From Candidatus Bathyarchaeota archaeon (GTDB lineage: Archaea; Thermoproteota; Bathyarchaeia; Bathyarchaeales; WUQV01): DNA of 32,429 nt. Below are positions 3,703 to 25,955 of this stretch, in pieces. The stretch covers positions 1 through 32,429 of the forward strand of contig JAOZNA010000004.1 of NCBI GenBank assembly GCA_029934005.1. The letters are read 5' to 3'. The translations under genes and the position numbers were made by a program. The notes under the pieces are model-generated. The model saw nothing but the letters and a program-made list of their open reading frames with translations, was not told the origin of the DNA and made no database searches. How positions within the stretch are numbered: the stretch's first letter is position 1; every line of letters begins with the position of its first letter.

Positions 3703-4235
3703 CTTTCACGTGCATGCTTTACGATGTGAGATGCTTCGGGTAATATAAGTTTTTCAAAACAAAGCCTAACAGCTCGAGGAGAACCAGGAATGCAGAAAAC
3801 AGCTTTTCCTTCGGTAACTCCTCCTAAAGCACGACTTAAAATGACAGCAGACCCCGTTTCTTGGTAACTAAGCCAACGGAATAATTCTCCAAATCCAGGC
3901 AGAATTTTCTCCAGAAAGGGCTCAATGGTTTCAATAGTAACGTCGGAAGGACTTACTCCAGTTCCACCACAGAAAACGATTACATCTACTTCTTTAGATA
4001 ACATTGCCTTTCTAAGCTCGGTTCGAATCATGGCTTGGCTGTCTGGAATAATTGATTTAAAAATCACTTTATGTCCAGCTTTTTCAATGAGAGAAACTGC
4101 TAAGTCTCCAGAAGGGTCTTCTACAATTTTTCCGGTTTTAGCCTTTTCGTATCGGCTTGTACTAACCACTATTACAGCGAAGCCTAGGGTTTTGGGAGCA
4201 TGTTTCTTATGCATCTTTGTGGTGTTACTTTCCAA
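3699..4235 (-). CDS. moaB: MoaB/Mog-family molybdopterin biosynthesis protein
   Basis: VIVVSTSRYEKAK, DVIVFCGGTGVSPSDVTIETIEP, and VFCIPGSPRAVRLCFEKLILPEASHI. Next to moaA and moaC. Start (TTG 4235 or ATG 4214) uncertain. Confidence 0.9.
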   Translation of the reverse strand: MESNTTKMHKKHAPKTLGFAVIVVSTSRYEKAKTGKIVEDPSGDLAVSLIEKAGHKVIFKSIIPDSQAMIRTELRKAMLSKEVDVIVFCGGTGVSPSDVTIETIEPFLEKILPGFGELFRWLSYQETGSAVILSRALGGVTEGKAVFCIPGSPRAVRLCFEKLILPEASHIVKHARER

Positions 4236-4677
4236 ACTTTTCCTCTTCCTTAAGCTTTTTTACTACACGGATTCCTTCAATAACCGTGTGTGGATATTGC
4301 CCAAACTCGTTCTTTTCATACGTTTTAACCATATCCCAGATCGTGAGCAAAGCGGTAGCGGTTCCTACTAAAGCTTCCATTTCAACTCCCGTTTGGGCAT
4401 GAGTTTTAACGGTGGTTGTTACCCTAAGAGTTTCTTTATCTTCGATTTGAATTTCGACTTTAACGTTTGTTAATGGTAGGGGATGACATAAAGGTATCAA
4501 ATTACATGTGTTTTTTGCCGCAAGTATTCCGGCAATCTTCGCTATTTCAATTGGATTACCCTTCTCTATTTTGTTCTGCTTAATTAAACCGACTGTTTCT
4601 GGTCTGAGTTTAATAATTCCTGTTGCTGTGGCTTCTCGGTAAACCTCTGGTTTTCCCGTGATATCAACCATACTCAT
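4225..4677 (-). CDS. moaC: Cyclic pyranopterin monophosphate synthase MoaC
   Basis: MVDITGKPEVYREATATGIIKL, AGILAAKNTCNLIPLCHPLPLTNVKVE, TGVEMEALVGTATALLTIWDM. The track start at 4752 overlaps the upstream gene; ATG 4677 fits the family N-terminus. Confidence 0.94.
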   Translation of the reverse strand: MSMVDITGKPEVYREATATGIIKLRPETVGLIKQNKIEKGNPIEIAKIAGILAAKNTCNLIPLCHPLPLTNVKVEIQIEDKETLRVTTTVKTHAQTGVEMEALVGTATALLTIWDMVKTYEKNEFGQYPHTVIEGIRVVKKLKEEEKFGK

Positions 4678-4681
4678 TATT

Positions 4682-5389
4682 TTATTCTCCTTTTGACCTA
4701 AATTGAGAGAGCGAAAGTTGTTTTTTCTCCTTTTCTTCCTTTTTTGGCTCATAGTTTTGTTCGGATTTTTCTAAAGCTTTCTTTTCTGTGCTAAAATGTA
4801 AGCTTTCTTCTTCAAGAAGTTTTATTTGATGTTTAACTTCGGCTAATGCTTTTTCAGCCATAAGTAAGGAAGCCCTTAACTTTTCTATTCTTTGAAATAT
4901 ACGATTTAAAATTGGTTGTAGGTCTTCTGAGGCTTGAATGGTGATTACTGGTCCTTTAGTTTGGGCTGCTTCCCTCAATCGTAAAATTGTGTCGATTATG
5001 GGAGATGGGTTGTCCCGTATTTCTCTCATTAAAATTAGGTAATCGGAACCGTCGGTTACGGCTTTTCTTAACTGTTCAAATGCAAGCTTTGAATTTGCCA
5101 ATGGTTCTGGGGATTTCTGAAATAAAATCTCCTTGAAGTTTTTCAGAGTTTGAGCCATGTTTAGGTAATATTTGTTTATTGTTGGTTCCTTTTCGGGCTT
5201 TAGCATCAGCATCATGTCTTTTAGACTTTCATTTAGTTCTATGAGTCTATTGGTTGAATTTTCTGTTTTCTTCCAGATTTCCATGGGTTGGAGTCTTTCG
5301 AAAATTATTCCGCTTGCTATTTCGGTTGCCAATTTTTGAAGTATTTCCTCAAATTCTGCTATTTGACTTCTAAATTTTTCGTAAATCAA
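4682..5389 (-). CDS. Hypothetical coiled-coil protein
   Basis: Long open frame, 235 aa, helix/coiled-coil-rich with charged C-terminal tail, ending just before moaC. No family recognised. Confidence 0.6.
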   Translation of the reverse strand: MIYEKFRSQIAEFEEILQKLATEIASGIIFERLQPMEIWKKTENSTNRLIELNESLKDMMLMLKPEKEPTINKYYLNMAQTLKNFKEILFQKSPEPLANSKLAFEQLRKAVTDGSDYLILMREIRDNPSPIIDTILRLREAAQTKGPVITIQASEDLQPILNRIFQRIEKLRASLLMAEKALAEVKHQIKLLEEESLHFSTEKKALEKSEQNYEPKKEEKEKKQLSLSQFRSKGE

Positions 5390-7079: not shown

Positions 7080-8060
7080 ATGCTTAAAAAAATTAGGGTT
7101 GTTCCTTTAGCGGCGGAAAGCTTAGGCGTTAGGTCTATGGCAACTTTTGTGGAAACCGTAGACATTAAAATACTTCTTGATGCAGGAGTATCTCTAGCTC
7201 CAAACAGATTTGGTTTCCCACCACATCCACTTGAATATAAAGCGATAATTGAAGCTAGAGAGAAGATAAGAAAAGCGGCTGAAAAAGCAGAGGTAGTAAC
7301 TATAAGTCATTATCATTTCGACCATCATACGCCTTCCTACGTGGATTGGTGTTATAACTGGACGAATAATGAAACAGCTCGGCAAATATACAAAGACAAG
7401 ACAGTGCTGGTCAAAAATTACAAAGAGAAGATAAATTTTAATCAACGTCGAAGGGGATGGATGTTTACCAAGACAAGTGGAAAAGCCGCTAAAAAAATTG
7501 AAGTAGCTGATGGAAAAACGTTTAATTTTGGCGAAACTAAACTAATCTTTTCTGAACCAGTTTTTCATGGACAAGAAAACACGGCGTTAGGATGGCTTCT
7601 AATGGTAACGATTCAACATGAAAATGAAAGGGTGATGTTTGCACCAGATGTGCAGGGACCAATGTATAGTCCAACATTGGATAAAATTCTGGACATGAAG
7701 CCAGACATGCTCATAATAGGTGGACCACCGCTTTATCTTTCAGGTTTTAGAGTGAAAGAAGAACAGATAACTGTGGCTGTTCGAAATTTGGAAAAAATAG
7801 CCGAAAAAGTACCATTGACGATTTTGGAACATCACCTTTTAAGAGATGAAAAATGGAAGGAAAACGTGGAAAGAGTATTTGAAAAAGCAAATGAAAAATC
7901 CCATAAAGTCTTAACAGCAGCGGAGTTTTTAGGTTTAAAAAATAGGTTGTTAGAAGCAATAAGAGACAAGTTATATGAAAGGTATCCGCCAAGTAAGGAG
8001 TTCGAAAAGTGGTCCAAGCTTCCGTTAAAAGAGAGAAAGAAAGTTATGCCGCCTATTTAG
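7080..8060 (+). CDS. MBL-fold metallohydrolase, UPF0282-like
   Basis: RVVPLAAESLGVRSMATFVET and SHYHFDHHTPSY metal-binding motif, then FAPDVQGPMY and EHHLLRD. Confidence 0.87.
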   Translation: MLKKIRVVPLAAESLGVRSMATFVETVDIKILLDAGVSLAPNRFGFPPHPLEYKAIIEAREKIRKAAEKAEVVTISHYHFDHHTPSYVDWCYNWTNNETARQIYKDKTVLVKNYKEKINFNQRRRGWMFTKTSGKAAKKIEVADGKTFNFGETKLIFSEPVFHGQENTALGWLLMVTIQHENERVMFAPDVQGPMYSPTLDKILDMKPDMLIIGGPPLYLSGFRVKEEQITVAVRNLEKIAEKVPLTILEHHLLRDEKWKENVERVFEKANEKSHKVLTAAEFLGLKNRLLEAIRDKLYERYPPSKEFEKWSKLPLKERKKVMPPI

Positions 8061-8611
8061 CTTATGTCTAATGCCATTCGAATTTCATCTACATATTCCC
8101 CTTTCCAAAAAATTGCCTTCGGAACCCTTCCAACTTCTTTAAATCCAAACTTTTTGTACAAAGCCCTAGCCGGATAGTTGTTTTCATAAACATCAAGCAC
8201 TATCAATTTTAAACCATGCTTCTTAGCTTCTCGAACTAGTACTTCCATAAGCTTCGTGGCAATTCCAATTCTTCTATAACCATTTTTCACAGCTATTCCC
8301 AAAGTTCCAACATGGCTTTTATGCCCCTTATGCATGTTTATTTCTGCACCAGCCACAACCCTACCATCAACTTCAGCCACCAAATAAATCATTTCACCTT
8401 TCTCAACACTTACCAACCGTCTCGCAAGCCATTCCGCCTCTTCAATCCTACTAACTTCCCTTGTTCCCAAAATAGGTGCTTCTTCCCTAACAAGCGAATT
8501 AATAAAATCCAATAAATCGTCTAAATCCTCCCACCTCGGAGTTCGCAACACCACGATTTTGCCATTCCTAGCAATAAACTTTTCTACAATCATGTTTTCC
8601 ACAACAAACAT
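8057..8611 (-). CDS. GNAT-family N-acetyltransferase
   Basis: LVAEVDGRVVAGAEIN, VGTLGIAVKNGYRRIGIATKLMEVLVREAKKHGLKLIVLDVYENNYPARALYKKFGFKEVGR. Confidence 0.9.
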   Translation of the reverse strand: MFVVENMIVEKFIARNGKIVVLRTPRWEDLDDLLDFINSLVREEAPILGTREVSRIEEAEWLARRLVSVEKGEMIYLVAEVDGRVVAGAEINMHKGHKSHVGTLGIAVKNGYRRIGIATKLMEVLVREAKKHGLKLIVLDVYENNYPARALYKKFGFKEVGRVPKAIFWKGEYVDEIRMALDIS

Positions 8612-8663
8612 AAACCATTTGAGAAAAATTAATTAAACTTTCCCAGCGAAAGGTTAAGCAGAT

Positions 8664-8741
8664 GCGGCCGTAGTCTAGCCTGGACTAGGACGTCAGCCTG
8701 CCACGCTGAGGACCCGGGTTCAAATCCCGGCGGCCGCACCA
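8664..8741 (+). tRNA. tRNA-Gly(GCC) with encoded CCA
   Basis: Acceptor GCGGCCG/CGGCCGC; anticodon stem TCAGC-CTGCCAC-GCTGA gives anticodon GCC; T-arm CCGGG-TTCAAAT-CCCGG; discriminator A then CCA at 8739-8741. Confidence 0.96.
8716..8741 (+). repeat. 26-bp direct repeat, tRNA-side copy (candidate att core)
   Basis: GGGTTCAAATCCCGGCGGCCGCACCA, identical to 11474-11499. Confidence 0.92.
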
Positions 8742-8895
8742 CTTATCACAGTTATTTTTGCCATAAACTTTCTTCATTTGCTCTATTGCTCGCTTTAAAG
8801 CATTTTCACAAACTTTAGAAACGTTTAAGCCTAATTCATGGGGATTCTTTGACTAATTCTTTATCAACTTCAACAGTTGTTTTAGCCTCTGGTAT
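8716..8895 (-). pseudogene. N-terminal fragment of an archaeal split (SSV-type) tyrosine integrase, frameshifted
   Basis: Minus strand translates (I)PEAKTTVEVDKELVKES / frameshift / ELGLNVSKVCENALKRAIEQMKKVYGKNNCDKWCGRRDLNPG, running into the tRNA. Removing one base from the GGGG at 8840-8843 joins the two frames. Confidence 0.6.
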
Positions 8896-9099
8896 ACCTG
8901 AGTATACTTTTCAACATTCTTCCATTTAAGAATGGCGTGTGCAGAGCCATACAGTTTAAGAATGGAAAATATAATCCAAAATTGATGTTACTTAGCTTAG
9001 CTTGACTGATCAATTATTTTTTTATTAAATTTCTCTTTGTTTTATATTCTTCTTTCTAGTCCTTCAGCAAAGTTAAAATATAAAAAGGATAAGAAAAAT

Positions 9100-11313
9100 A
9101 TGAGTAAAATGTGTAGGGCAATATTTCTGATCATTGCGATGTTACTGCTTATTTCTCCACAGAACTTTTTAAGTCAAGAAAATAGACAAGTTTCACATGA
9201 AACTGCTTACGTGTTTGCAAGGGCCTCTTCGTTTGAAGAATCTACGCAATTTGGACCGAGAATTGATGAACTTTTGATTAAAATGCCTGCAGATTTTGAG
9301 CTACTGGAAACCGATGAAATTCACATCGCTGATTGGCCATTGCCTAAGGAATTAGTTGATAGGTGGTCTAAGCCGCCATATAACGAAACAATAGCTTTGG
9401 CAAAATATGCACAGACAGTTATGTATCAGCTCGACATCAACAATAATGAGACGATTCCCACATATTCAGGCTGGCGCTCTCCAACAAGTTACACACAGTT
9501 TAGACAGGCCATAGCGCATTTAGTGAACAGAACAAGGATTATAACAGAAATTTTAAATGGTTCTGGTATGCCGTTAACTACGCCTATTTTTCCTTGGCTT
9601 GAAAAATGGTTTAATCCTAATGCGGATGCTTATCCCTATAATCCCATAGAAGCTGCTAATATATTAGATGAAGCTGGCTTCGTCCAAGGCTCAACACCAA
9701 ATCCATATTATGATCCTTCAAAACCTGGATCTGCACAGTTCATTAGAGTATATCCGCCAGGACATGAAAAGGCTGGGCAAGACCTCGATCCCCTAATATT
9801 CTATGTGAGATTCGACCATCCTGAAATGAACTCTACGGGTTACATCATCCGAGATGAGCTATTAAGTTTGGGAATACCAGTGGAAATACCCCGGATAGAA
9901 ATACAAGAGATGATACTGAAAGTAATGTGTTATGGCGATTATCATCTCTATACCGGGTGCTGGAGTTTGGGCATCGAACCAACCTATTTATATGGACTCT
10001 ACCATTCTGAACAATATTGGAAACCAGGCTATTGTTATAACTATAACAACGTTCACGATGATGAACTGGATTACTGGCTTGAAAAACTTCTATATGCAAC
10101 GAATCAAGATGAAGCGGCAGTCGCATGTAGAGAAGCCCAGAGAAGACTCGCAGAAATCGTGGGCATCATACCCTTATGGGCACCTATAAAGGTTAAAGCA
10201 TATAGAAACGATTTAAGAGGAGTGGTTAACGAGGAAAGTTTTGGAGTCAACAGTTGGTGGACATTTGTTAACGCCCATCCAAAAGATGTCAAGATCGGCG
10301 GAACCATTAGGTATGGAATTTCGTATGAAATAGGAAGCTTAAATCCTGTCTGCAGCAGTGGCACGTACTCGGATTGGCTAGTGTTAGACAAAATCTATGA
10401 TACGCTGATAAAACGAGATCCTTATAATGTTACGGAGGCTGTTCCATGGATAGCCAAGAGTGTAGAAGTGCAAACATGGAATGGAAATAACACGAAGCTT
10501 GTTTTTGAACTGAATGATAACATTTGCTGGCATGACGGTGTCAAATTAACATCTGAGGACGTAAAGTTCACCATCGAATACATACAATCATTCTGGGACG
10601 CGCCGATGTGGGGGCACTCACTTCCAGACTTCTATCACCATGTTGCGGACGTTGATCACGTCGAGACCCCTGACCCCTACACCGTAATCATTTACATGAA
10701 CTCTCCAAGGATATGGTCTCTCTATGACGTGGGGGAGGTGCCGATACTGCCAAGGCATATATGGGAAAACATAACTGAGCCTTGGGGATTTCAGCCTGAC
10801 CCCCAACTTGTGGGTACGGGTCCCTTTAAGTTCTCAGAGTATGTTAACGGAAGCCACGTGCTTCTTATAGCTAACAGGGAATACTTTAAATTTTTCACTC
10901 CCCGCGTACAGTTGAAGCCAAAAATGCTGCGAATCACCAAAGAAATGGAACAATTAGCTTGCGTCTTAGAAACATGCATATTTGAAATTCAAAGCTTCTT
11001 CAACATCGCTGACATTAACGTGACATTAATTATCCAAGATAACCGAACAGTTCTCCACCTGATATATACATCTATTGGCGATCAAAATAACAATGGAGTG
11101 CCGGATTTCACAACATACTTCAGTTCGCACGAAATAATCGGATATGTCCTCTTCCATTTGGGTGAGAACGCGAGAAACTACAAGTTCTTTCATGGATTCG
11201 CATTTCCAATGAATCTGACGGTAAGCGGAAAAATAGGAAAAATAGGAAACATAACCTTTGAAAAATCAGACAAGATCACCGTCACATCCTCGGTACCTGC
11301 GATACCACGCTAA
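9100..11313 (+). CDS. Secreted ABC-type solute-binding protein, family 5-like, with permuted lobe order
   Basis: Signal-peptide-like N-terminus (MSKMCRAIFLIIAMLLLISPQNFLS). SBP_bac_5 C-lobe motifs (FRQAIAHLVNRTRIITEIL, EAQRRLAEIVGIIPLWAPIKVKAYRNDLRGVV) come before N-lobe motifs (IGGTIRYGISYEIGSLNPV, NDNICWHDGVKLTSEDVKFTIEYI, GTGPFKFSEYVNGSHVLLIANREYF). Confidence 0.82.
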   Translation: MSKMCRAIFLIIAMLLLISPQNFLSQENRQVSHETAYVFARASSFEESTQFGPRIDELLIKMPADFELLETDEIHIADWPLPKELVDRWSKPPYNETIALAKYAQTVMYQLDINNNETIPTYSGWRSPTSYTQFRQAIAHLVNRTRIITEILNGSGMPLTTPIFPWLEKWFNPNADAYPYNPIEAANILDEAGFVQGSTPNPYYDPSKPGSAQFIRVYPPGHEKAGQDLDPLIFYVRFDHPEMNSTGYIIRDELLSLGIPVEIPRIEIQEMILKVMCYGDYHLYTGCWSLGIEPTYLYGLYHSEQYWKPGYCYNYNNVHDDELDYWLEKLLYATNQDEAAVACREAQRRLAEIVGIIPLWAPIKVKAYRNDLRGVVNEESFGVNSWWTFVNAHPKDVKIGGTIRYGISYEIGSLNPVCSSGTYSDWLVLDKIYDTLIKRDPYNVTEAVPWIAKSVEVQTWNGNNTKLVFELNDNICWHDGVKLTSEDVKFTIEYIQSFWDAPMWGHSLPDFYHHVADVDHVETPDPYTVIIYMNSPRIWSLYDVGEVPILPRHIWENITEPWGFQPDPQLVGTGPFKFSEYVNGSHVLLIANREYFKFFTPRVQLKPKMLRITKEMEQLACVLETCIFEIQSFFNIADINVTLIIQDNRTVLHLIYTSIGDQNNNGVPDFTTYFSSHEIIGYVLFHLGENARNYKFFHGFAFPMNLTVSGKIGKIGNITFEKSDKITVTSSVPAIPR

Positions 11314-11388
11314 ATTTAGTAAATCTTATTGATTTCTAACATTTTGTGATATTCTTTATGAATTTAAATAAATGTGAAATAAAAATTT

Positions 11389-11499
11389 TTAGCAATATCG
11401 TTTTAATATGGAATGAAACGAGCTTAGAAAAAGTGGAGTTTGCGGGGGATATCTCCAAGCGTTAGTGTTCCGGGGGTTCAAATCCCGGCGGCCGCACCA
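11389..11499 (-). pseudogene. Truncated int(C)-like stub of the split integrase
   Basis: From the 26-bp repeat the minus strand reads WCGRRDLNPRNTNAWRYPPQTPLFLSSFHSILKRYC*. It shares the att-encoded WCGRRDLNP segment with the 8716-8895 fragment, then stops. Confidence 0.45.
11474..11499 (+). repeat. 26-bp direct repeat, distal copy of tRNA-Gly 3' end (candidate att core)
   Basis: GGGTTCAAATCCCGGCGGCCGCACCA identical to 8716-8741. Upstream sequence does not form the rest of the tRNA (no GCGGCCG partner). Confidence 0.92.
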
Positions 11500-11658
11500 G
11501 TTGTTAACGTTAAAGCTGTCTTTACTCCTTTCATGAATCTTACAATTCCATTTTTGAATCAAATTTGAACGATTATTAAAGCCTCTTAAGGGTAGTTTAA
11601 GATGCTGTTTCGAAGAAATTTTATCTTGGTAACATATTATTAGGTCGTTGAACATTTA

Positions 11659-12495
11659 ATGGACGGATGTGAATTTAGTTTGTTTGATTTGCTTGAGAAA
11701 TGCGCTTTAAAAGTTAGGGAAGCAGTTATCCCATTGCTGGGTGAAACCTTAGCTTCGAAACCAGTTGGGCGTGGAGCTGGTGGTGATTTAACAAAAATTA
11801 TTGATTTAAAGGCTGAGCAAGCAATTATGAATGAATTAAAGGAAGCTGGAATTTCTTGTACCATAATAAGTGAGGAGGCTGGAATAGTAAGGATTGGTGC
11901 AAGTCCCGACAGGTTTTATGTGGTGACTGATCCGTTGGACGGGACGACTAATGCTACTCATGGAATTCCGTTTGCGGCGACTTCTATTGCTGTTGCGACG
12001 AAGCCGTTTTTTAGTCATTTAACAGCAGCGGTGGTCTTGGATTTGGTTCATAACGTTTTGTATAGGGCTGAAAGAGGGAAGGGCGCTTACCGTAACGATG
12101 AGAGGATAAGGTCTTCGCAGAATGATGATATTGTGAATTCGGTTTTAGGAGTTGATGTCAACATTTACAAGGCTTTAGATGGCAAATTACGTGAAAAACT
12201 TGGGAGAATTCTTTCAATAACTAAGCATCCGAGGTATTTTGGAGCTAACGCCTTGGAACTTTGTTTTGTTGCCGCTGGAGTTTCAGACGGATTCGTAGAT
12301 TTAAGAAGAAAACTTCGAGCTTTAGACATTGCTGGTGGATACTTGATTGCGAAGGAAGCTGGAGCAATAATAACAACTCCAGACGGCAAAGAAATTGAAG
12401 CTGAAATAACTCCTCAAACTAGGATAGCATTAGTGGCTGCTGGAAACAAGAGGCTTCACAAGAAGATTTTAGAAATTTTAAATAGGGAAAAATGA
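11659..12495 (+). CDS. Inositol monophosphatase / archaeal fructose-1,6-bisphosphatase family phosphatase
   Basis: ISEEAG, DPLDGTTNATHGIPFAATSIAV, LDIAGGYLIAKEAGAIITTPDG. Confidence 0.9.
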   Translation: MDGCEFSLFDLLEKCALKVREAVIPLLGETLASKPVGRGAGGDLTKIIDLKAEQAIMNELKEAGISCTIISEEAGIVRIGASPDRFYVVTDPLDGTTNATHGIPFAATSIAVATKPFFSHLTAAVVLDLVHNVLYRAERGKGAYRNDERIRSSQNDDIVNSVLGVDVNIYKALDGKLREKLGRILSITKHPRYFGANALELCFVAAGVSDGFVDLRRKLRALDIAGGYLIAKEAGAIITTPDGKEIEAEITPQTRIALVAAGNKRLHKKILEILNREK

Positions 12496-13337
12496 TGATT
12501 AAGCCAGTTCAGCCTTTTCCAGCACTTCTCATAAAAAGAGGGAAAAGAAAAACCCTTGTAATAGCTGACCTCCACATAGGATGGGAAGTTCCACTCTCTG
12601 AAGAAGGAATACATGTACCTTCACAAACTCCTAAACTTCAACAAAAACTTGAAGAAGTAATAGCCAAGGCGAAGCCTCACGACCTCTTGGTGCTTGGAGA
12701 TGTAAAACATACCATAGCAAAAGCTGAAATCGAAGAGTGGAAGGACGTACCAGAATTTTTCGAGTCATTGAAAGAAAAATTTCAAAATTTCTATGTGATT
12801 CCGGGAAATCATGATGGAAATTTAGAGCCTTTACTTCCCGAATATGTTGAAATTCTACCTTCAACAGGAATAAGAATCGGAGACGTTGGATTGTTCCATG
12901 GTCATACTTGGCCTTCACCAGAACTTTTAAGTTGCAAAACTCTGGTAATGGGACACCTTCATCCCGTTGTAGTTTTCCGTGACCCTCTAGGATTTAAGAT
13001 AACTAGTCAGGTTTGGGTTAAAGCAAAAGTTGATCAGAACAGATTTGTTAGTTCTTTGTTAAAGAGGATGAATGTTAAAATGAAGGTGAAGTGTCCCATA
13101 GAGGTTTTTGAAATGGAGTTTGGAGTTAAAGTTAGAACTTCTGAACTTATTATCATTCCGGCTTTTAACGATTTCCTCGGTGGTCAGCCAGTTAACACGG
13201 CAAGGGTTGCGAGAGAAAACAAATATAAAGAATTTATTGGGCCTGTTTTACGTTCTGGATGTATAAATATGGATTTCTCGGAACTATACCTTTTAGATGG
13301 AACATTCATCGGAAAGTTGGGACAAGTAAAATTTTAA
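12492..13337 (+). CDS. Metallophosphoesterase, MJ0037-like
   Basis: VIADLHIGWE, LVLGDVKHT, VIPGNHDGNLEPLL, GLFHGHTWPSPELL, MGHLHPVV. Confidence 0.88.
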   Translation: MMIKPVQPFPALLIKRGKRKTLVIADLHIGWEVPLSEEGIHVPSQTPKLQQKLEEVIAKAKPHDLLVLGDVKHTIAKAEIEEWKDVPEFFESLKEKFQNFYVIPGNHDGNLEPLLPEYVEILPSTGIRIGDVGLFHGHTWPSPELLSCKTLVMGHLHPVVVFRDPLGFKITSQVWVKAKVDQNRFVSSLLKRMNVKMKVKCPIEVFEMEFGVKVRTSELIIIPAFNDFLGGQPVNTARVARENKYKEFIGPVLRSGCINMDFSELYLLDGTFIGKLGQVKF

Positions 13338-24897: not shown

Positions 24898-24922
24898 TTC
24901 TTTTAATTTCTCTTAACAGAAA
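24898..24922 (+). repeat. 25-bp exact direct repeat, copy 1
   Basis: TTCTTTTAATTTCTCTTAACAGAAA, identical to 25931-25955. Confidence 0.9.
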
Positions 24923-25930: not shown

Positions 25931-25955
25931 TTCTTTTAATTTCTCTTAACAGAAA
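25931..25955 (+). repeat. 25-bp exact direct repeat, copy 2
   Basis: TTCTTTTAATTTCTCTTAACAGAAA, identical to 24898-24922. Confidence 0.9.

Follow-up and report, generated by a model that had tools for sequence, protein, structure and literature searches.

We propose that positions 8742-11499 of the window, by which we mean the whole 32,429-nucleotide stretch of Candidatus Bathyarchaeota DNA analysed here, are quite probably a composite relic, in which a class-A-type integrase-less unit with a solute-binding protein (SBP) gene adjoins the int(N) scar of an SSV-type integrase at a single tRNA-Gly gene. The evidence comes from the two ends of this segment, which bear the marks of different integrase families, and from comparable units and elements in related genomes.

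Integration at a tRNA-Gly gene

The anchor, on the attL side, is a complete tRNA-Gly(GCC) gene on the forward strand at 8664-8741 (ARAGORN; Rfam tRNA, 64 bits). Its last 26 nt (GGGTTCAAATCCCGGCGGCCGCACCA, 8716-8741, forward strand), comprising the T-arm and 3' acceptor half and ending at the tRNA CCA, form the att core and recur exactly and in the same orientation at 11474-11499, the attR core, where the rest of the tRNA is absent. The exact-repeat search and ARAGORN agree on this arrangement, which an earlier note on this DNA had described, and the direct repeat supports its proposal of site-specific integration into the 3' half of tRNA-Gly. By our own arithmetic, a 26-mer would recur by chance within 32 kb with a probability of about 1e-7; exact repeats reaching 18 nt number just two in the whole window, of which this is the longer. 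The other, a direct repeat of about 25 bp (TTCTTTTAATTTCTCTTAAC...), lies at 24898-24922 and 25931-25955, its copies about 1 kb apart. No empty tRNA-Gly site for the segment was found in G001, G003 or G011, where synteny is not kept; tRNA-Gly adjoins the downstream IMPase gene in neither family relative, and no genomes of the same genus were returned.

A scar of an SSV-type integrase at the left end

Next to the left repeat, the earlier note had read a minus-strand peptide ending in WCGRRDLNPG and had assigned it to int(N). The peptide (TTVEVDKELVKES/HELGLNVSKVCENALKRAIEQMKK...WCGRRDLNPG, 8742-8898) is indeed present and runs into the repeat, but three-frame translation places it in two frames, since an extra G in GGGG (8840-8843) splits the reading frame and makes a stop; a clear start codon is absent. 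When the two frames are joined, the peptide matches the Pfam CcdA family (2.2e-6), a ribbon-helix-helix that reads into the att core. The same architecture is found in the intact integrase L090 (G028, 393 aa; CcdA, PF00589 and PF16795), where the ribbon-helix-helix is followed by att read in frame, and, throughout the order, in short int(N) ORFs that extend over tRNA 3' ends, for example at the tRNA-His of G044. Judged from its sequence, the left end is a real SSV-type int(N) scar that carries a frameshift, and the earlier assignment is upheld.

A second SSV-type element lies elsewhere in the same genome (L093, G000:C25, ~7713-12764), at tRNA-Val(CAC). Its int(N) ribbon-helix-helix ORF, on the sense strand, enters the 5' half of tRNA-Val; about 5 kb upstream there is a partial copy of the 5' part of a tRNA, with a frameshifted int(C) after it.

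A conserved DNA motif at the right end

The note had paired this int(N) with an int(C) reading inwards from the right repeat. As a reading, the minus-strand peptide WCGRRDLNPRNTNAWRYPPQTPLF exists and continues for 28 codons past att before a stop; as a gene it does not hold. It has no Pfam match, no int(C) with a catalytic domain (PF16795/PF00589) is present at the right att, and in SSV-type genes, whether intact or int(C) (L090, L113), the sequence beyond att is unlike it. An order-wide search with WCGRRDLNPRNTNAWRYPPQTPLF gave matches in several families, in which the conserved object was DNA (an A-run, a G-run and TTTGCGGGGGATATCTCCA) and not protein; 'AWRYPPQTPLF' is the antisense of this DNA motif, which is found at many intergenic places. 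We therefore rejected int(C) on the right, the domain being absent and the peptide being motif antisense, so that of the proposed split SSV-type integrase the left half stands, while in place of the right half there is a conserved attR motif, non-coding and belonging to another integrase family. It should be noted that 'GRRDLNP...' peptides read antisense at the end of a tRNA could likewise be taken for integrase halves.

The motif occupies 11426-11457 on the forward strand, with a 19-bp core at 11439-11457, and is joined to the right repeat by the linker AAGCGTTAGTGTTCCG (11458-11473). It occurs at a single site in the window. Allowing up to two mismatches, the 19-mer was found in 92 of the 163 genomes of the order and in 55 of 69 genera, and the reversed pattern gave one match among the genomes listed. 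A scan of 84,980 species with the pattern TTTGCGGGDGAYATCTCCA returned 104 stretches; nearly all of the 80 listed with titles are from Bathyarchaeota, and the matches outside this group amount to a handful, with about 11 expected by chance (our own arithmetic). The motif is essentially confined to Bathyarchaeia, far beyond chance. Rfam returned nothing relevant except tRNA for the tRNA-Gly segment and six motif loci. As a terminator of a particular gene the motif was rejected, since it has no strand preference relative to neighbouring genes.

The motif as the attR arm of class-A elements

Across 130 copies, the sequence logo has a near-invariant core, in part by construction because copies were chosen by similarity to the 19-mer, and, at a fixed distance, the tRNA T-arm GGTTCAAATCC as a further signal. 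That selection has no bearing on the T-arm, tRNA, integrase and attR tests; some loci from separate searches share genomes, duplicates having been removed by sequence only. A T-arm (score at least 9 of 11) follows 44 of 134 motif copies, mostly at an offset of 9-10, and 0 of 125 control segments, and the motif often lies 9-10 nt ahead of a partial tRNA 3' end. Complete tRNAs within 4 kb are one-sided: eight are upstream on the same strand, against zero, two and two in the other three arrangements. Pairs of tRNA and partial tRNA were found at motifs for tRNA-Leu(GAG) (L276, with a 33-bp exact repeat), tRNA-Asn (L219) and tRNA-Ala (G080), whereas at the first site after tRNA-Ala in G041 degradation has obscured any repeat.

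Several motif sites lie beside a class-A tyrosine recombinase (PF00589, 2e-22; ~400 aa when complete). Its nearest NCBIfam model is archaeal XerA, although it scores far below that model's cut-off, and the N-terminus of the G131 protein is a zinc ribbon of the IS1/IS1595 type. In 23 of 30 class-A loci fetched across the order, a complete tRNA (Ala, Arg, Pro, Leu, Cys, Met, Asn and Ser were represented) is on the opposite strand, with its 3' end 18-73 bp from the integrase stop. As to integrase polarity, C-terminal remnants of class-A genes were found on the att side of 7 of 153 motifs, each of them antisense, whereas the opposite side had 0 of 152, and every class-A gene found within 6 kb on the motif side is antisense.

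Ten class-A elements on long contigs have a located direct repeat, a small sample for which repeats were sought by exact seeds, and in six the motif immediately precedes the attR repeat. These are at tRNA-Phe in G113 (10.9 kb), tRNA-Ala in G127 (11.4 kb), tRNA-Pro in G116 (7.9 kb), tRNA-Pro in G131 (11.9 kb, where attR has the motif's first half), and tRNA-Leu and tRNA-Phe in G099, the former with two successive motif sites at 6.1 and 8.1 kb and the latter 5.4 kb long. No clear motif was seen at the located repeat of the other four (G077, G029, G126 and G053), and G077, G078 and G097 have none despite many class-A integrases each. Genomes of this group are mostly fragmentary metagenome assemblies in which contig breaks hide element ends.

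In two IMG/VR contigs, L298 (~3952-4925) and L300 (~1-790), the motif lies beside a class-A-family integrase; L300 also encodes a major head protein and a head maturation protease, and L298 a tail protein. The L298 integrase frame starts inside the T-arm, directly after the motif. The elements L374/L373 (G131), L381 (G113) and L383 (G127) look complete at 11-12 kb, and by eye they seem to carry restriction-modification or primase-helicase genes and, in one of the three, a subtilisin-like gene beside attR. At L381/L392 (G113:C4 ~420 kb and C9 ~198 kb), class-A integrases occur in pairs on opposite strands with ~150 bp between them; the two appear to face each other, perhaps with a tRNA gene in the interval.

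From the T-arm spacing, the one-sided tRNAs, the integrase polarity, the motif at located attR sites and the viral contigs, our conclusion is that class-A elements, of which some are viral, have the motif as their attR arm, though it is not universal among them. Class-A elements are widespread tRNA-targeting mobile elements in Bathyarchaeia that apparently have not been described before. A search of the open-access archaeal literature for the letters TTTGCGGG gave nothing relevant by title or abstract, which is weak evidence of novelty; a review of archaeal tyrosine recombinases lacks the word 'zinc' and has 'Bathyarchae' in one place, and 'Bathyarchae' is absent from the archaeal integron paper PMC9668308.

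Integrase-less units and the history of the segment

In the window, the attR arm motif stands just before the partial tRNA 3' end, as it does in those class-A elements that have it at attR. The distance from motif to T-arm is 17 nt here and about 15 nt in a tRNA-Gly unit of another family (G003), against the usual 9-10; this spacing is usual and not universal, and therefore we class the window unit as one that lacks an integrase but has the attR arm of the family, and not as a full member. The two tRNA-Gly units have the same motif and a near-identical linker (most of its length, AAGCGTTGGTGTTAC in G003, with AAGCGTTRGTGTT common to both) but different cargo. Since the right end is the attR motif of a different integrase family, the two ends of the segment most likely derive from two elements at the same tRNA.

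Comparable units, all without an integrase, are found behind tRNA genes of relatives. L276 at tRNA-Leu(GAG), 3.1 kb in size and with a 33-bp exact repeat, carries radical SAM and cation efflux genes; the G003 unit at tRNA-Gly (1.9 kb, motif and 20-bp repeat) has an HTH gene, and L301 in G041 at tRNA-Ala (0.5 kb) a SemiSWEET gene, while the window unit measures 2.8 kb, with motif and 26-bp repeat around the SBP gene. A search for an empty L276 site gave no genome with clear synteny among the matches listed. Successive motif copies in G041 share one orientation and are separated by about one gene, and when G041 is compared with G080 of the same genus, the homology that runs from ilvD ends exactly at the tRNA-Ala 3' end, after which different units follow. 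One of the G041 arrays (L172, L173, L180 and L301) is downstream of tRNA-Ala(TGC), and their genes include a PQQ-propeller, a methyltransferase, HTH_10 and DUF1254/1214. The ends of the G041 contigs overlap (by 33 and 94 bp), and the arrays are therefore probably longer than the contigs.

On this evidence the right end (motif and 26-bp core) is the attR of a Bathyarchaeia-wide element family whose XerA-like, zinc-ribbon class-A recombinase would act at the 3' half of tRNA genes, and the SBP unit is a one-gene cargo unit without integrase, like those at tRNA-Leu, tRNA-Ala and tRNA-Gly in relatives. The left end is int(N), half of a distinct SSV-type (suicidal) integrase at the same tRNA, to which the unit was probably fused; a single int(N) fragment is the evidence for this composite origin. 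The simplest history would be two integrations at one tRNA, followed by a deletion joining them, by which the rest of the SSV-type element, its attR and the cassette's left end would have been lost. The SBP cassette could have been placed by a class-A integrase in trans or be what is left after internal deletion of a larger element.

A related reading, which we consider rather unlikely, is that the segment is a living integrase-less cassette, which a class-A integrase acting in trans put in whole, with int(N) incidental at its left edge. It overlaps our preferred explanation and differs in the unit still being movable. The exactness of the 26-bp repeat and the comparable units L276, L301 and G003 would fit it; against it, the left end no longer resembles that of a class-A unit, and no class-A integrase was found in the unit's own genome (85.7% complete) at E<=1e-10, nor any class-A integrase or remnant in the window. 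With no such integrase in its own genome, the unit is stranded, barring an integrase that escaped detection or one that enters later. The alternatives offered by the earlier note, an inactive relic or a cargo-only unit, are supported.

More broadly, we speculate, tentatively, that class-A recombinases may see the 19-bp arm together with the universal tRNA T-arm and so run an integron-like, tRNA-anchored cassette system, in which single-gene units would be added in trans behind many tRNAs and build tandem arrays, the window SBP being one cassette.

The cargo gene and its origin

The only long gene between the two 26-bp copies (9088-11313, forward strand) encodes in an intact frame an orphan family-5 solute-binding protein of 741 aa (SBP_bac_5; PF00496, 1.9e-40), with an apparent signal peptide and a divergent C-terminus; neither this gene nor the 19-bp motif figured in the earlier note. 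Its GC3, 0.41, is somewhat higher than that of its neighbours (0.33 +/- 0.03). The protein (9088-11310) looks circularly permuted, residues ~400-610 matching the N-terminal half and ~124-365 the C-terminal half of family-5 SBPs; its Bathyarchaeia relatives are collinear with it, and NCBIfam matches of the G003 protein have the same order. By eye, the G003 and G017 relatives end in an apparent dockerin-like repeat that the window SBP lacks.

The best relatives (51-54%) are from another family; no close match was found in two family relatives, nor any relative by peptide patterns in GTDB contigs. An SBP relative sits between CinA and GPN in G003 and G017, but these genes are adjacent without an SBP in G000 (the window's own genome), G001 and G002, and the SBP gene has therefore moved at some time. 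The CinA-GPN position was accordingly rejected as ancestral for the window's family. Replication-factor-C genes lie within 7 kb of the SBP gene in both the window and G003:C26, which leaves room for an older chromosomal neighbourhood.

This last observation is among the points in favour of taking the SBP for an ordinary chromosomal gene, the motif for a dispersed intergenic repeat (a terminator, small RNA or MITE-like sequence) and the partial tRNA for an old scar. Many motif copies, moreover, have no T-arm and are solitary intergenic copies whose strand bears no relation to that of neighbouring genes, and the minus-strand poly-T resembles a terminator. Such an account is nevertheless improbable in view of the fixed spacing to tRNA 3' ends, the one-sided tRNAs, the integrase polarity and the motif at the attR of tRNA-bounded elements; it also has to contend with the lack of an Rfam match, with an SBP missing from the alternative site in the window's family and with family relatives that have no close match. 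Least likely of all is a single decayed SSV-type element, with int(N) at its left end, int(C) at its right, SBP cargo and most of the interior and int(C) deleted, which can draw on the real int(N), the 28-codon right frame and the tRNA-Val element of the same genome (int(C) ~5 kb from int(N)) but is largely refuted by the motif, which yields the right peptide when read antisense and which recurs in much intergenic DNA and at the attR of non-SSV elements; the dissimilar sequence after att in L090 and L113 also speaks against it.

Implications

If our explanation, a composite relic with a class-A attR arm, is true, a 19-bp signature finds one end of integrative elements across a class of uncultured archaea, and integrase-less cargo units that are invisible to gene-based annotation become locatable. 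Such a signature would provide a direct map of the genes that Bathyarchaeia exchange and of the tRNA genes at which they do so, and would tie these exchange units to contigs of head-tailed viruses with the same site and integrase family (L298, L300). Mobilisation in trans would become testable with a defined att pair.

Comparison with known systems

Tycheposons and other tRNA-anchored islands of marine bacteria have a complete tRNA at one end, a partial tRNA at the other and cargo units between. The window and class-A units are alike in their complete and partial tRNA ends and in their cargo units, but differ in the domain of life and in the integrases, and we know of no signature that tycheposons share with the Bathyarchaeia units.

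Among archaeal elements, SSV-type (type I, suicidal) integrases and the elements captured with them are reviewed in PMC8371274. These elements resemble the window in targeting the tRNA 3' half and in a left int(N) with read-through of att, whereas the window has no int(C), a conserved non-coding motif at its right end and a single orphan cargo gene. Type II (lambda-like) elements, which keep an intact integrase and include the cryptic integrated elements of Thaumarchaeota (PMC6563490), are like class-A elements in that the recombinase gene lies intact beside att in a tRNA 3' end, and small cryptic elements occur among them as well. Class A differs from them by the N-terminal IS1-like zinc ribbon, by a 19-bp attR arm common to many genera and several tRNA isotypes, and by integrase-less units and tandem arrays.

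Integron cassettes, which have been reported in archaea too (PMC9668308), resemble the Bathyarchaeia arrays in having about one gene per interval, similarly oriented sites and no integrase nearby; several genes between similarly oriented sites are present in the G041 arrays, but not in the window, which has one site. The Bathyarchaeia site is a linear motif with a tRNA T-arm at tRNA genes, and the class-A integrase gene lies inside the element and not, as in integrons, in the platform.
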